In this document: one piece after another, positions 13,904-62,197 of the stretch
How the letters are laid out: the number at the start of each line of letters is the position of its first letter
Position numbering within the stretch: position 1 is the first letter of the stretch
Origin: an uncultured Candidatus Melainabacteria bacterium
GTDB lineage: Bacteria; Cyanobacteriota; Vampirovibrionia; Gastranaerophilales; Gastranaerophilaceae
Assembly: GCA_934692485.1 (NCBI GenBank)
Contig: CAKUTX010000003.1
Span: forward strand, 62,001 to 126,000
DNA: 64,000 bases
Direction: 5' to 3'
Notes under the pieces: model-generated
What the model saw: the letters and a program-made list of their open reading frames with translations, nothing else
What the model was told of the DNA's origin: nothing
The model's database searches: none
Position numbers and translations under genes: made by a program

Positions 13904-13927
13904 CTTTTTCTCCTTAATTTGTTTTTA

Positions 13928-13985
13928 GGGTCCAGCGAACCTATCACTGTCAACCCGCCGGTAAGGTTTTTAATTCCGACCCGGC
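13928..13985 (-). ncRNA. Candidate cis-regulatory leader RNA of metK
   Basis: In the metK transcript two hairpins lie back to back. The first (13985-13957) closes with GCCGG/CCGGC. The second (13956-13928) closes with GGGTT/GACCC and has an inner CAGTGA/TCGCTG stem with a five-base loop. GC content is much higher than the surroundings. CCUUA on the 3' side of the first hairpin (13966-13962) could pair with UAAGG of the SD (13916-13912), so translation control is plausible. It does not match the SAM-I, SAM-II, SAM-III or SAM-VI sequences I know. A ligand of SAM is inference from position only. Confidence 0.5.
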
Positions 13986-14000
13986 AATGTACTAATAAAG

Positions 14001-14029
14001 AGTGTACACCAGACAATTTTCAAAAGCAA
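14001..14029 (-). promoter_or_regulatory. Candidate promoter of metK
   Basis: On the reverse strand TTGCTT (14029-14024) and TACACT (14006-14001) are 17 bases apart. Transcription would start near 13994, just before the leader hairpins. A 10-bp perfect inverted repeat, ATGTACTAAT at 13987-13996 and ATTAGTACAT at 14053-14062, brackets the promoter and could be an operator or an alternative leader stem. Confidence 0.4.
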
Positions 14030-14104
14030 ATTATTAACTGATATGTATTAACATTAGTACATACAAAGCGAATAATCTGAAAAGGGACTATTCTTTTAAA
14101 TTGA

Positions 14105-16425
14105 TTAGTTGAATGATACGTATTTCTTAAAAAACTCTACAACGAATTGATCAGCTGTGTAATTACGATATATATCTTTTTGCATTTCTTCAATAGCCAA
14201 ATCTACCAATGCAAGCTTCGTTGGAGCATCTGCATTTGGAATATTTTCTAAAATTGAGTTAATTACTTGTTTCTCTGGAGATTCATTTATTAATTTTGCA
14301 CTAAGTATTCCTCTCCTTTTACTTTCAACTTCTTTTAAATTCTTCTCATATCTTTCATAATCGACAAGAGCATCCACATAATCAATATCTGCTTGGTTGT
14401 ACTGATTAGCCTTTTTAAAATAATAATCATTCGGATTTGTATTTTTAGGATATTTTGTTCCATTTAAAACATCTGAGTAATCATTTGAGTAACCCTCTTT
14501 ACCAATTTTATACAAACTATTATAAAATTGATTAGCTTCTGCTTGTGTTTTAATTTCACCAGTTCGTATTTCTTCTTTGAGAAGACGAACAGCGTCATTA
14601 TTTGCAACAATATCAACTCCATTACCAGTAATTAGTTGTTCTTTAAATTGTAAATAATGATTTAATTCATGGGTTATTACCTCTACAGAGTCTCCATTAT
14701 AATTCATATTAAATTCAACAGTTTTACTCGCAGGAATAAAAGCTCCTCCGTATCTAATGTCCTCATCATTTACCAATTTTAAGGAGACATTTTCAATATC
14801 CATTTCTTTACATATAAATTTATATAAGTTGCTCAAATACCCCTTTTTATTACCTGTCACGCGATATTCTGCTTGCATTTGCAATATTTTGTACTTATTT
14901 TTATTAATCATTGCAGCAAACGCTTCATCTGTCTCTGCAAACTTTGATGACGGTGCTTTTAACTTTCCTTTTGGAATAGATATACCACCACCACCTAAAG
15001 AAACTTTATTTCCTTGTGCCATTTTTTGTTTTAGCAGCATTCGCTTATTTTCAATAACTTCTTTTCCGTGGGTTACGAATTTTTTGCCAATACCTCTGGA
15101 TATAGCAAAACCTGTGCCTTTCATCCCTAAACCAACGAGAGGAGCGAACAAAGCACCTTCTCCTGACGCTTTTGCAACATCTAAAAGAGAGCCGCCATTC
15201 ACGGCTGTCCTAAACCCGTTATCTATTCCACCGTTAATAACACCATCTGCGAGAACTTCTGAACCGTAAGCAAGAGTCTTTTTGCCTACACCCTCTCCAA
15301 CAAATTTGAACGCTCCTGGGCTCATTAGGGATGTTTTTAATGTTTGTTTAAAACTATTTTCAACAACATCTTCCGCGATTTCTTTCCCAATTGTTTTGAC
15401 TGTCTGTAATCCCAACTTGGTTGCGACAGTTTTTCCTACAGCTCCGCCAAAACCACTTGTTACAGGTGCCAAAATTCCGGATACTGCGCCTGTTGCAGAA
15501 TCTTTTTTGGCATCGTCCAATGTATATTTTCTTCCGCCCGAATATGCATCAGCAGCTTTCACTCCTGTTTTCACAGCAGCGCCGACACCTGCGGCTACTG
15601 CAACTCCAACAGCAATACTTGCACCTCCTGTAAATGGAGATGCGGCAACCGCCAAAGAATAAACCCCAAAAGACGTTATACCTGATGCAACATCTGCGAC
15701 TACGTCTACAGCCATTTCTTGACCTTCTTTGTAACCTTCTATTTTCTTTGAGGCTTGAGAAAATTCTCCTTTTTTAAATTTTTCTAAATTAGCTTTTGTA
15801 AATTTTTGACCGGTGATTTTTTCAAATTGTTCCGGATTAATTTTGGAATTTGGTTGGCGCAATTGTTTTAAAAGCTCTCGTTCCTCATTAATTTGGTGTT
15901 GAGCTTTATCCGAGCCGTCCCCAATTTCTGTTTTGTTTTTAAACCAGTCCCAGCTTTTTCCAATAAAACCTTGTTCTTTTTTTATTTTATTTAATTTTTT
16001 TTCTTGATTATTCAGTTTTACTATATTTTGGTCAATTGCACCCAAAGTAGAATTTTTAGCTTTTATTGGTTTAGATTTTTTACCATTTTTTGTAATAGAA
16101 TAAGAACTTCCATCCGGAGAAATTGCAATTTGACCTTCTACTTTTTTGAAATACTCCGGTTTAATTTGAGTTCCGTCTGCGCCATAATATTTGCATGCCA
16201 AACGACCGTCTTTCAGTTTTGTGTAAACGACTTTTCTTCCGGATTGCAAATAAATTGTTTGAGCTTGTTGCTTTTTAGCAGAGTGCTCTAGTGTAACGCC
16301 TTTACCTGACGGGCTATTGCCCCCCCCCCGAACAGCAATCCTATAGCTTTTTCACGAGAAATCTGAGGATTTCTCTTTAAATACAAGTTTAATTGTTGCT
16401 GTTGTTGTACGCTTAAATTTGACAT
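14105..16425 (-). CDS. Large HELNH-motif (zincin-like) protein, out of frame at a G10 tract
   Basis: The gene starts at ATG 16425 behind a good SD (GTAGGAG) with MSNLSVQQQQQLNLYLKRNP. After 33 codons it enters a run of ten G (16329-16320). With ten G the frame ends at TAG after 45 codons. With eleven or eight G it runs on into the long frame to 14105, giving a 773-residue protein. Seen in that protein: an N-terminal Gln-rich segment, a charged region, a glycine/alanine-rich hydrophobic stretch (~242-289) like membrane-inserting toxin regions, and THELNHYLQF (~585-594), an HExxH zinc-protease motif. A signal peptide is absent. Expression is probably ON/OFF by slipped-strand change. The family is not recognised; a secreted effector, toxin or adhesin-processing protease are possibilities. 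An assembly error in the tract is the main alternative. Confidence 0.75.
16320..16329 (-). repeat. G10 homopolymer in 5' coding region (contingency tract)
   Basis: Ten consecutive G on the coding strand lie at codons 34-37 of the HELNH gene. Such a run is very unlikely by chance in AT-rich DNA. One more G, or two fewer, joins the start to the long frame; one fewer gives a stop at CAA TAG. Confidence 0.9.
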
Positions 16426-16492
16426 TATAATTCTCCTACTTTTAATCATTCGGAAGAATTTCTTTGTTTCTTTAACAAAAAACAACTTTTTG

Positions 16493-16651
16493 TTACATTT
16501 CGTAAGAAATACTAATAACTAAATCGTTTCCCTGAATATCTACAATCGCCCAACGCACAACTGATTTATATAGTTTTTTTAATTCGTTTTCTATATAAAG
16601 ATTATCAAATTTATCTATTTTTTTTATTCTTATAACATCTGATTTAATCAT
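16493..16651 (-). CDS. Small protein of 52 residues, unknown function
   Basis: The reverse strand encodes a 52-residue frame starting MIKSDVIRIKKIDKFDN and ending DLVISISYEM. It is not in any family I recognise. It has balanced composition, an amphipathic helix-like centre (ENELKKLYKSVVRWAIVDI) and a C-terminal beta-strand pattern, unlike a random frame. A TAAAAT hexamer lies six bases before the ATG with no clear SD, the same leaderless layout as other genes here. It is divergent from tlyA and lies just upstream of the HELNH gene on the same strand. Confidence 0.6.
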   Translation of the reverse strand: MIKSDVIRIKKIDKFDNLYIENELKKLYKSVVRWAIVDIQGNDLVISISYEM

Positions 16652-16657
16652 AATCCA

Positions 16658-16663
16658 ATTTTA
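16658..16663 (-). promoter_or_regulatory. Candidate -10 of the 52-residue gene (leaderless)
   Basis: TAAAAT on the reverse strand is followed by six bases and the ATG at 16651. TTAGCA, a weak -35, lies 16 bases upstream. Confidence 0.45.
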
Positions 16664-16694
16664 CTACAAATATATTTTATGCTAATTTAAAAAT

Positions 16695-17507
16695 ATGAAA
16701 GAACGATTGGACAAATATTTAACGGATTTAGGTTACTTTGACACAAAAAGCAAAGCATCAGCTGCAATTCTTGCAGGACACGTAAAAATTAATGATGAAT
16801 ATATTACAAAAGCAGGATTTCAAATAAATCCGACAAAAGAATATGAAATTGTTGTAAAATCAATGCCTTACGTTTCTCGAGGCGGATTTAAACTAAAAAA
16901 AGCCTTAGACACATTCCCTATTAAAATAGAAGGGAGAATATGCATTGATGCCGGTGCTTCAACTGGAGGTTTTACGGATTGTCTTTTGCAAAACGGAGCA
17001 AAATTTGTATACGCGGCAGATGTCGGTTATGGGCAATTAGACTGGAAAATTCGTTCTGATAACAGGGTTAAACCTATTGAAAGAACAAATCTTAAAAACT
17101 GTAATTTCGAGGATATTTATTCGATAAATGAACCCGTGGCAAACCTATTAGTCAGCGACATGTCATTTATTTCTTTAACAAAAGTACTGCCAAATTTAAA
17201 AACTCTTTTATCACCAGATTTTCACGAAATGATTTTACTAATCAAGCCTCAATTTGAAGCAGGAAAAGAAAAAGTTGAAAAAGGCGGAGTTGTCAGAGAT
17301 AAAAAAGTTCATGAAGAAGTTATCGAAAATGTTATAAATTGCGCAAAAGAGTTGAACTACGCAATTAATGACCTAACTTTTTCATCAATAAAAGGGCCGT
17401 CAGGGAACATTGAGTATCTTATTTGGATTTCTACCCAAGGCGATGACAAAATAAACATTGATATTAAATCAATTGTTGAAAGCGCTTTTGAAACATTAAA
17501 CAAATAG
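16695..17507 (+). CDS. tlyA: TlyA family rRNA 2'-O-methyltransferase
   Basis: TlyA-type enzymes methylate 16S and/or 23S rRNA at cytidine 2'-OH positions; they were once called hemolysins. An N-terminal S4 RNA-binding domain (KERLDKYLTDLGYF, KASAAILAGHVKIND) is followed by an FtsJ-like methyltransferase with the SAM motif CIDAGASTGGFTDCLL at ~96-111, AADVGYGQLDWKIR, LVSDMSFISL and LLIKPQFEAGKEKVEKGGVV. The length of 270 residues is normal. An extended -10-like TGCTAATTT lies just before ATG 16695, with no SD, so it too may be leaderless. Confidence 0.93.
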   Translation: MKERLDKYLTDLGYFDTKSKASAAILAGHVKINDEYITKAGFQINPTKEYEIVVKSMPYVSRGGFKLKKALDTFPIKIEGRICIDAGASTGGFTDCLLQNGAKFVYAADVGYGQLDWKIRSDNRVKPIERTNLKNCNFEDIYSINEPVANLLVSDMSFISLTKVLPNLKTLLSPDFHEMILLIKPQFEAGKEKVEKGGVVRDKKVHEEVIENVINCAKELNYAINDLTFSSIKGPSGNIEYLIWISTQGDDKINIDIKSIVESAFETLNK

Positions 17508-43021: not shown

Positions 43022-43726
43022 CTACCACGGATAATCATTTTTTATCTTCCATCCATCGCGGAGAATTTTAGCAGCACAAGATATTCCATCTCCAGATTTA
43101 CTACAACTGTTATTAATAGCAAATTCACTTGAATTATTGCCACCTGGTCTAACTATTCCATTTTGAAAATCAATTTCAAAAACAAAAACATCTTTTCCAA
43201 ACATATTTGGCTTTTTCATTCCATTAATATCAATATATACAGTCTGCTTGGAAGCGAATAAAGCTTGTCCTAAACCTTCCTCAGAATCTTTATTTCCACT
43301 CCAAGTCATTAGATTAACAAAATATGCGACTCCATCTTGAGTTGTAAAAAACACCCTACCAAAATCATAAGAAGTAAAAATTTCGACTCCGGTTGGATTT
43401 CCATTTCTAAATGAATAAAAATCAGTTCCAAGAGCTCCCTTATATATATTAGGAGAATTAAAATATGGAAACCAGTAAGTTTGAAAGAAATCTTTTACTT
43501 TACTTGCATATAGAACATCTCCAGCACCAAGTTCTGCAGACGAATTATCGGCAACAGATTTTTGCATAACTTGCACTAAGATAGAATACGACTTTTTCAA
43601 TTTTGCAACCGTTTGCTGTTTTTGATAATTAGCAATTACAGTAGGTAAAGTCATAGCAGCCACTACACCAATAATGCCTAAAGTTATTAATACCTCTGCA
43701 AGAGTGAAAGCAAACAATTTTTTCAT
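43022..43726 (-). CDS. Type IV prepilin-like protein (pseudopilin)
   Basis: The N-terminus MKKLFAFTLAEVLITLGII has a prepilin leader: cleavage expected between Ala6 and Phe7, with Glu at +5 and a long hydrophobic helix. The remaining ~200 residues contain VFFTTQDGVAYFVNLM, DINGMKKPNMFGKDVFVFEI and CAAKILRDGWKIKNDYP. The broken prepilin at 61419-62197 has the same domain end to end, so these are paralogues. SD GAGGAG is before ATG 43726. It is divergent from an XRE regulator 132 bp away. The role could be in a pilus, a type II secretion-like system, or surface display; no pilus machinery is in the window. Confidence 0.87.
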   Translation of the reverse strand: MKKLFAFTLAEVLITLGIIGVVAAMTLPTVIANYQKQQTVAKLKKSYSILVQVMQKSVADNSSAELGAGDVLYASKVKDFFQTYWFPYFNSPNIYKGALGTDFYSFRNGNPTGVEIFTSYDFGRVFFTTQDGVAYFVNLMTWSGNKDSEEGLGQALFASKQTVYIDINGMKKPNMFGKDVFVFEIDFQNGIVRPGGNNSSEFAINNSCSKSGDGISCAAKILRDGWKIKNDYPW

Positions 43727-59749: not shown

Positions 59750-61408
59750 ATGTCAGAACAAATGTTACTTCAGCCGATAAAAGCGGCTAATACAAATAAA
59801 GCTAAAGAATCACTAGAAAAAGCCAGAATAGCACACGAAAAATATCTTATTCGTCAACAAAACACAGATTTACAAGAGGCGATTGAGTACTATATTGACG
59901 CGGTAAAATATGACCCTTCTATGCCAGAATCATATTACCGCTTGGCAACATTAATGTTTGAACAAGGGCAGATTAGTCTTGATACTGCAATTGAACAATG
60001 TAAGACAGCTGTTTCTTTAGCTCCAAAGAACATCAATGCTCATTTATATACCGGATTTTTCATGAAGCTTGCTCAGGATTTTAAATCCGCAGAACAAGAA
60101 TTCAAATCAGCAATAAAAATGGGGAAATTAAACTCTGCAAGACCGAGATTAATTCTATCTCAATCCATTTTACAAAAAATTAATTCTAAAAATGGAAATA
60201 TCAGCGATTATTTAAGCTTTGTGTATTACTTTTTATCTGGAAGCTTGATGTTGGCATGGGATAGACCGTCAATGAAAATGTTTTATAAAAACATGTCAGA
60301 CGATTTTTCTGTGTTTACGTATAATACTGTTGGAAAATTTTTAGAAAAATTTAAAATGTACCCGTCTGCAGAAAATATTTACAAACAAGCTATTACTGCG
60401 ACGAAACATAGCGAAATTTTTTATGACAAAATGGGAGATTTAGCTCTTAAAAATAAAGAAATGGATTTGACTGTAGATTGTTATAAAAAAGTTTTGGAAG
60501 CAAATCCTCTTAATAGAGATGTTTTAGTAAAACTTGCAACAGTTCTTCAAACTTATTTCCCTGAAAACACAGATGAAACAATAGATTGCTACGAAAAGCT
60601 TTTGGAATTTAATATTGATACTCCACAAATTTATTATGAATTGGGACATCTTTATTTGAAAAAAGAAGATAAAATTAATTCCATAAGCGCGTTCAAACTC
60701 GCATTAGAAAAAGATGCCGAAAATCCTTTTTATAACAACTCTTTGGCATACGCATATTCAAAAGCTCAACTTTATGATGAAGCTATTGAACACTATCAAA
60801 AAGCTATTCAAATTAATCCGGATAAAGAATGGACATCAATTGTTTGTGAAGCTTTAGGTACTATTTATGCGGAAATAAAGGGAAATATTGATGCTGCCGT
60901 GTCAACATATCAGGCTGGAATTATTTTAGACCCAAATAACTACAGCTTATATTTATCTTTGGGTGATGTACATATGGCATCATATGATTTAGATAACGCT
61001 ATAAGGGCTTATTGCGATGCAATAATGCTTAAGCCTGACGATTATAGAGCTTATTCGAAAGCAGGAATTGCTCTTTGGGAAAAAGACTATTTGGAAGAAG
61101 CATTGGTATCTTTCCACAAAGCAATTGATTTGAACCCAGAAAACGAATACGCACAAAACAACTTGGGAATTCTTTATCTTGACGGACTTGGAGATGCTGA
61201 AGAAGCTCTTGAGTATTTTGAAACAGCTATAGAACTTAATCCTAGTTATACATTAGCATATTTCAATGCCGCAAGAGCATCGCAAGCGATGGGATTTACC
61301 AATGATGCCGCAAATTATTACCAAATGTCAATTGATTTAAACAAAATCACACAAGACCTAGATGAAGACGACATTATATCAAGATTACACAAGTTATTTG
61401 AAATATAA
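59750..61408 (+). CDS. Tetratricopeptide-repeat protein
   Basis: A ~552-residue protein made largely of TPRs: ALEKDAENPFYNNSLAYAYS, AIEHYQKAIQINPDKEW, AIMLKPDDYRAYSKAGIALW, ALVSFHKAIDLNPENEYA, ALEYFETAIELNPSYTLAYF. No signal peptide is seen, so it is probably a cytoplasmic scaffold. SD GGAG is before ATG 59750 (TTG 59747 is an alternative). The next gene, the broken prepilin, starts 11 bases after its stop with the SD overlapping, so both are in one operon; a link to prepilin export or assembly is possible. Confidence 0.88.
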   Translation: MSEQMLLQPIKAANTNKAKESLEKARIAHEKYLIRQQNTDLQEAIEYYIDAVKYDPSMPESYYRLATLMFEQGQISLDTAIEQCKTAVSLAPKNINAHLYTGFFMKLAQDFKSAEQEFKSAIKMGKLNSARPRLILSQSILQKINSKNGNISDYLSFVYYFLSGSLMLAWDRPSMKMFYKNMSDDFSVFTYNTVGKFLEKFKMYPSAENIYKQAITATKHSEIFYDKMGDLALKNKEMDLTVDCYKKVLEANPLNRDVLVKLATVLQTYFPENTDETIDCYEKLLEFNIDTPQIYYELGHLYLKKEDKINSISAFKLALEKDAENPFYNNSLAYAYSKAQLYDEAIEHYQKAIQINPDKEWTSIVCEALGTIYAEIKGNIDAAVSTYQAGIILDPNNYSLYLSLGDVHMASYDLDNAIRAYCDAIMLKPDDYRAYSKAGIALWEKDYLEEALVSFHKAIDLNPENEYAQNNLGILYLDGLGDAEEALEYFETAIELNPSYTLAYFNAARASQAMGFTNDAANYYQMSIDLNKITQDLDEDDIISRLHKLFEI

Positions 61409-61418
61409 GGAGAAAAAG

Positions 61419-62197
61419 ATGAAAAAGCAACGGCTTGCCCCCCCCCCGAGAACAAATTAGCATATAAAAACCACGCTTTTACTTTAGCAGAATGCTTAAT
61501 AACTCTTGGAATTATTGGAGTAGTTGCAGCTTTAACATTACCTCCCGTTATTCAAAATTACAAAAAACATGTATTAATTACAAAACTAAAAAAAAGTTAT
61601 TCTATATTAGGGCAAGTCGCTCAAAAATCCATAAACGATAATGGAGCAATTGATTTACCAAGCGGCGACAGGATAAATGGAAACGAAGAAATAACTGAAA
61701 AGTTTTTTCAAACTTATTGGTTGCCATATTTTGATGGAGTAAAAGTTTCTCCAAATGGTGAAGATATAAAATTAAATAATGATAATATCCCATCATATAA
61801 ACAGCAAAATAATGAATATTTAATAGGAGTAGTTAAAACGTTGTATAACAGCGGTAGAATTTTTTTTACAACAAAAGATGGTATGACGTATTTTGTGAGT
61901 GTTAAAGCAACCAAACACACCTATGATGAAAATGGGAATATTACTTCATCAGAACAAGTATTTGCGACGAAACAAAGTGTTCTTGTCGATATAAACGGGC
62001 TACAACCGCCAAATACATATGGGAAAGATGTTTTTAGCTTTGTTATTGACTTTGAAGAAGGAACTGTTAAGCCGCTAACAGAAGAAGCAATGACTCCTAA
62101 CTCAATAAATATCAATTGCCAAAAAGTTGGACTATTCTGTGCTGCTAAAATTATGCAAGATAATTGGCAAATAAAAAAAGATTACCCTTCTTTATAA
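61419..62197 (+). CDS. Prepilin-like protein, out of frame at a C10 tract
   Basis: ATG 61419 has a strong SD (AAGGAG). The first codons read MKKQRLA and then meet ten C (61438-61447). With ten C the frame stops at TAG after 13 codons. With eleven or eight C it continues through ENKLAYKNHAFTLAECLITL, a prepilin leader with cleavage before Phe and Glu at +5, to a 259-residue protein ending in KKDYPSL. The mature part matches the prepilin at 43022-43726 (FFTTKDGMTYFVSV, DINGLQPPNTYGKDVFSFVI, CAAKIMQDNWQIKKDYP). The gene is therefore probably switched ON/OFF by tract length, and is OFF in this assembly. Confidence 0.8.
61438..61447 (+). repeat. C10 homopolymer in prepilin 5' end (contingency tract)
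   Basis: Ten C at codons 7-10 would code PPP when in frame. One more C, or two fewer, restores the prepilin frame. Confidence 0.9.

Follow-up and report, generated by a model that had tools for sequence, protein, structure and literature searches.

Introduction

In Neisseria, components of the type IV pilus vary through slippage at repeats or through recombination with silent copies, in an arrangement that joins few switch loci to gene conversion. The present analysis concerns a stretch of 64,000 nucleotides from an uncultured Candidatus Melainabacteria bacterium (contig CAKUTX010000003.1, positions 62,001 to 126,000), here called the window, in which two ten-base runs of G or C break the reading frames of a large gene, referred to as gene 1, and of a type IV pilin-like gene. 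Judged from sequence, these tracts probably belong to a genome-wide set of homopolymer slippage switches that are OFF by default and that act mostly on type IV pilin-like genes and here also on gene 1. Compared with Neisseria, the system is made up of many complete pilin-like genes, each of which carries its own start and its own tract.

A tested precedent for such a switch is found in Bifidobacterium breve UCC2003, where a sortase-pilus gene is split by G10 or G11 between a translated upstream open reading frame (ORF) and the gene body (PMC9187656). The annotated tract length corresponds to the OFF state, slippage in the population followed by opening of the frame gives rise to pili at two loci, and the G10 locus comprises 93.4% G10 and 6.5% G9, indicating low slippage (PMC9187656). 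The likeness to the present system lies in the gut-commensal host, in a pilus switch built on a G tract and in an OFF state at the annotated length, whereas B. breve has sortase pili and two loci in one genome (PMC9187656). The set described here consists of type IV pilin-like genes, with a median of 63 runs of at least nine G or C per genome over 33 genomes of one genus, and is distinguished by a common frame offset that comes with a built-in stop, and by a replication-strand rule.

Campylobacter offers a second comparison. Strains of C. jejuni carry 18-39 phase-variable genes as counted with PhasomeIt, tract lengths across all Campylobacter genomes are 9G in 53% and 10G in 26%, and the share of ON loci is near neutral drift in one dataset (PMC6321876). 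Both systems combine an AT-rich genome with poly-G/C tracts in ORFs at lengths around 9-10 (PMC6321876), yet in the present genus 80% of runs are exactly ten long, the start is in frame at only 7 of 117 pilin loci, and the genes concerned are mostly pilins. In the open-licence literature no report was found of phase variation, poly-G pilin switches or a leading-strand tract rule in Gastranaerophilales, Melainabacteria or Vampirovibrionia; the mechanism is known, and what appears to be new is the host group, the scale, the shared OFF frame and the strand rule.

Gene 1 and its tract

The window has a GC content of 32.85% and contains only two runs of C or G of at least seven bases, each exactly ten long. 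Six overlapping G8 matches were counted where dinucleotide shuffles average 0.15, and none of 100 shuffles reached six, so that homopolymer runs within coding sequence exceed chance, as is expected of slipped-strand contingency loci. The first run lies at 16320-16329, precisely where the initial annotation had placed it, and is C10 on the forward strand, that is G10 on the coding (minus) strand in the 5′ part of gene 1. A strong Shine-Dalgarno sequence, AGGAG at 16437-16433, precedes the ATG at 16425-16423, and the tract begins at codon 33 (not at codon 34, as first noted). With ten G the start frame, an ORF spanning 16288-16425, closes after 45 residues at a TAG (16290-16288) nine codons past the tract, in agreement with the original description. 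The other frame is open for 737 codons past the tract and ends at 14105; in the list of ORFs it is entered from a TTG, as 714 amino acids at 14105-16249.

Among the natural homologues of gene 1 are proteins of 772-773 residues, which bears out the 773-residue product that had been predicted for the alternative register. Two homologues come from the same species as the window, P0001 (99% identical) and P0107 (98% identical); both are full length and have two different glycine counts, while the window copy is closed. The tract lengths of P0001, P0107 and the window copy therefore differ, as deduced from proteins that share their flanks, which is the strain-to-strain variation anticipated for a contingency locus and part of the homologue comparison that the initial annotation had proposed. 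Start positions were scored for 120 listed of 483 homologues: the start of gene 1 is used in 45, another frame spanning the tract in 62 and a downstream position in 13, and by these starts three frames occur in nature. Those relatives of gene 1 that lie in named contigs belong to metagenome-assembled genomes of Candidatus Gastranaerophilales. The proposal that gene 1 is a phase-variable contingency locus is thus favoured by the full-length copies with different glycine counts, by the three frames among homologues and by the genome-wide tract set described below; since its tract is one of that set, a contingency system fits gene 1 better than a lone accident.

The gene 1 product consists of a conserved trunk followed by a C-terminal metallopeptidase-like domain with the motif HELNH. 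The trunk, rich in invariant positions, extends to residue 438 and is common to 22 natural proteins, after which several different tails follow; a constant N-terminal trunk joined to interchangeable C-terminal domains is the architecture of polymorphic toxins and effectors. On these features gene 1 may encode an effector-like protein, putatively a zinc metallopeptidase of the HExxH kind. In homologues P0011, P0012, P0107 and P0119 an extra module of about 380 residues stands after the trunk, before or in place of the usual tail.

Profile searches with gene 1 proteins gave weak matches that were not used, both in NCBIfam (best E 0.002 to a type VI secretion system effector family, scoring 17.4 bits where the cut-off is 300) and in PHROGs (best E 0.003). 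A search by sequence for a relative of solved structure returned DNA polymerases at a best E of 0.7, which was taken as chance. A promoter scan over 16300-16700 gave no more hits than shuffled sequence.

The pilin-like gene

The second run, which the initial annotation had missed, is C10 on the forward strand at 61438-61447 and breaks the frame of a pilin-like gene. It is situated 19 bases past an ATG at 61419, which is preceded by the Shine-Dalgarno sequence AAGGAG (61407-61412). The start frame (61419-61460) reads MKKQRLAPPPRTN and then meets a TAG, and the long frame after the tract (61448-62197, 249 codons plus stop) carries the prepilin signal FTLAECLITLGIIGVVAALT. This gene has the G/A-F-T-L-A-E signal followed by a hydrophobic stretch that marks type IV prepilins. 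The Pfam N_methyl profile matched the natural copy P0122 at E 0.0021 with 18 bits, below the cut-off of 21.2, and TIGR02532 was above cut-off for P0132, the G047 relative. The combination of sortase and LPXTG pilins that defines sortase pili was not seen on the pilin side, where the switched pilin of the window has a prepilin signal; no search was aimed at sortase.

A third protein search used an in-frame pilin of G047 as query, and 120 listed of 7984 matches were classified. A Gly/Pro run lay inside the leader in six and 11 began at the run; 58 had a short leader, 36 a longer leader without a run, and nine no motif in the first 140 residues. These leader classes are given little weight as evidence.

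Distribution and length of tracts

Across the order, G/C runs of at least nine bases occur in 315 of 383 genomes, with up to 176 per genome; these counts carry no gene context. The window was placed by DNA polymerase III alpha, for which the closest of the 383 genomes are 91-92% identical, and it presumably belongs to their genus, a set of 33 genomes. Within this genus 2019 runs of at least nine bases were counted, of which 1621 (80%) are exactly ten long, and 27 of the 33 genomes have at least 20 runs.

Sequence of close relatives amounting to 2.60 Mb from three species was read for gene context (G035 C2; G047 C1, C2 and part of C3; G005 C11). These pieces contain 136 runs of at least eight bases, with about 0.5-1.2 expected per piece, and together with the window shuffles this rejects chance or local GC-rich composition as the source of the tracts. 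Adding the two tracts of the window gives a set of 138, in which 127 tracts are exactly ten long and 117 directly precede a prepilin motif of the FTLAE type (32 of 32 in G035 C2). The other 21 include genes matching a glycosyltransferase, an AAA ATPase and a histidine kinase, one gene weakly similar to an M91 effector (E 0.0043, below the cut-off), and several spots without a long frame. Twenty of these non-pilin tracts are in G047, where 18 are exactly ten long, all obey the strand rule set out below and several have no adjoining long frame; a fixed length can thus not come from the pilin frame alone. Outside the set, short pieces of G168, G027 and G066 contain five tracts, all of which stand before a prepilin motif (offsets 2, 2 and 1, and two without a found start), and a 14-kb piece of G280 held no tracts.

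Near-constant length invites the explanation that true tract lengths differ and that assemblies miscall them: every length was taken from an assembly, long stretches of G are difficult to sequence, and ten is very common. The usual length nevertheless varies by lineage, being 9 in G058 (43 of 88), 11 in G068 (34 of 51) and G320 (70 of 89), 12 in G113 (38 of 64) and 13 or more in G018 (62 of 115). Moreover, A/T runs of up to 15 were called in the same contigs, and the frames and stops past the tract follow the called length. An artefact of this kind is very improbable.

The frame rule and the built-in stop

For each pilin locus the best upstream start with a Shine-Dalgarno sequence was taken and its register measured against the long frame. 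Among ten-base loci the same offset was found in 106 of 108, the remaining two being in frame. The shared offset is reached through three pairs of upstream and downstream phases (59, 41 and 6 loci), and of the 43 leader clusters that include ten-base loci 41 are uniform in it, so that descent from one leader is insufficient to explain it. The start frame encounters TAA or TAG at most four codons past the tract in 98 of the 106 loci (median 2), compared with a median of 9 in the third frame and a background of 5-8 within pilin bodies. A stop this close behind the tract makes the OFF state look built in.

Whether the start is in register with the body depends on the length of the tract, as in contingency loci generally: the seven in-frame loci among the 117 comprise two at length 10, one at length 8 and four of the five at length 11. 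Between tract and prepilin signal no internal start was found in 87 of 117 loci; a start without a Shine-Dalgarno sequence occurs in 11.

In G068, a more distant species with a usual length of 11, ten regions of 500 bases have tracts before prepilin signals and all are out of frame. Their offset is unlike that of the window's relatives, and a stop follows 1-2 codons past the tract in 10 of 10; the leaders are alike, so the ten regions are not independent. The predicted switch plan is the same in G068 despite the other length and offset.

The main rival explanation is programmed frameshifting, in which the DNA tract would be fixed and the ribosome or RNA polymerase would shift on the G/C run with help from the nearby stop, giving a fixed share of product and no change in DNA. 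The near-constant length, the constant offset and the close stop all speak for it. Against it, the shift would have to run in the opposite direction in G068, natural copies of gene 1 occur in all frames, and some pilin loci are in frame as they stand. We consider such recoding unlikely, and the strand rule bears on it further.

The strand rule

GC skew was computed with tracts masked over 50 kb on each side, and the skew-positive strand is by the usual convention the leading strand. All 138 of 138 tracts have their G run on the skew-positive strand: 99 genes that run along this strand carry G, and 39 opposing genes carry C. Along G005 C11, 16 G tracts are followed by 5 C tracts, the turn coinciding with the reversal of the skew near 760 kb, and the single C tract of G035 C2 sits where the skew turns negative. 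A general strand bias of G runs was rejected as the cause, since runs of 3-6 G are on the skew-positive strand in only 53-58%. As the G run keeps to this strand whatever the direction of the gene, replication and not transcription appears to set its orientation. Among the listed positions of distant genomes, one strand is used in G130 C22 (10 of 10), G068 C2 (5 of 5) and G068 C3 (4 of 4), and strands are mixed at the end of G068 C1.

Against programmed recoding, the run is G in some mRNAs and C in others, strictly according to replication strand (138 of 138), which an RNA-level mechanism does not require. The strand rule might instead reflect selection for tract stability, in which case the recoding explanation would stand.

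The nearest neighbour of a mature pilin falls in the other tract class in 25 of 115 cases (12 of 27 for the C class); neighbours therefore cross tract classes, and the type of leader follows the strand, not the pilin. Such swapping of leaders by mature pilins would be expected if the out-of-frame genes were a silent reservoir of recombination donors, with tracts that mark or aid exchange and with slippage secondary. A constant orientation to replication also recalls strand-dependent recombination signals. In contrast, every pilin locus examined comes with a start of its own, a Shine-Dalgarno sequence and a stop tied to the frame, which is unexpected for pure donor cassettes, and gene 1 is not a pilin. 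A separate expression locus was not found, though no search was aimed at one. A donor role of this kind seems quite doubtful.

Proposed mechanism and points against it

In the slippage reading, which we hold to be probable, each tract separates a strong start site from the gene body. At the usual length of the lineage (ten here) the start frame is out of register and has a stop just past the tract, so that the locus would be OFF by default and its transcript translated as a short leader peptide only. Replication slippage would now and then join start and body in one frame, turning ON a minority of loci and cells; the population would carry many different small pilus sets and, for gene 1, a changing effector-like protein. 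The sequences themselves establish the position, length, strand, frames and stops of the tracts and the existence of natural copies in other frames. Beyond this, the reading presumes that slippage in the cell is frequent enough to be useful, that OFF means no product and that a change of pili or of the effector-like protein is beneficial.

A more specific and more tentative version is possible, in which the pilin-like genes would form a default-OFF archive addressed by strand. Here a slip rate dependent on the replication fork would keep dozens to more than 100 loci OFF in most cells, each cell would show a different small pilus set, and the module would have begun to spread to unrelated genes, gene 1 among them.

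Several observations weigh against slippage switching. Variation in tract length was read from predicted proteins, not from the DNA of sister strains, and the tracts vary less in length than is usual for a fast switch. MutS1 was above cut-off in 19 of 20 genomes and MutL in 20 of 20, in tract-rich and tract-poor genomes alike; loss of mismatch repair as a cause of slippage is ruled out by this, and no repair defect explains it. A possible internal start with a Shine-Dalgarno sequence is present in 19 of 117 tract pilins, which may not need a switch. Pilin-like ORFs without a tract number 48 of 164 in the five pieces, mostly with a very short leader; these genes are perhaps made constitutively. 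The single ten-base tract examined in G168 has a different offset and adjoins N-masked letters.

In G001, a rabbit lineage (L161-L163), eight tracts in 60 kb are 8-11 bases long with strands mixed, and none has a prepilin motif; these, which are outside the set of 138, are a different, more classic-looking set in which the frame and strand rules fail. At distant gene 1 loci no G/C run of at least seven bases was found in 29 of 30 fetched, and the sole run, at L037, is part of a neighbouring pilin gene. The lack of a tract in homologues, part of what the initial annotation had named as evidence against a switch, is thus encountered at these 29 loci. The tract in gene 1 is accordingly a recent acquisition and not an old feature of the family.

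If the slippage reading is true, poly-G phase variation extends to the non-photosynthetic gut relatives of cyanobacteria, where its scale (up to 176 runs in a single genome) would exceed the figures given for C. jejuni strains. Three clear features, namely the OFF frame common to the loci, the stop close behind the tract and the unbroken strand rule, lend themselves to testing and could reveal how slippage depends on the direction of replication. It would also mean that automated gene prediction cuts genes with tracts short or assigns them wrong starts, leaving pilins and gene-1-like proteins under-annotated in gut metagenomes.

Other features of the window

A second pilin-like gene of the window, at 43022-43726 on the minus strand, has no tract and stands in contrast to the one described above. 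The leader of the S-adenosylmethionine synthetase gene (13904-14080, minus strand) matched no Rfam family at gathering score, and a search by E-value gave weak, unrelated matches only. It folds better than shuffled sequence (z -3.4) and could be an undescribed riboswitch.
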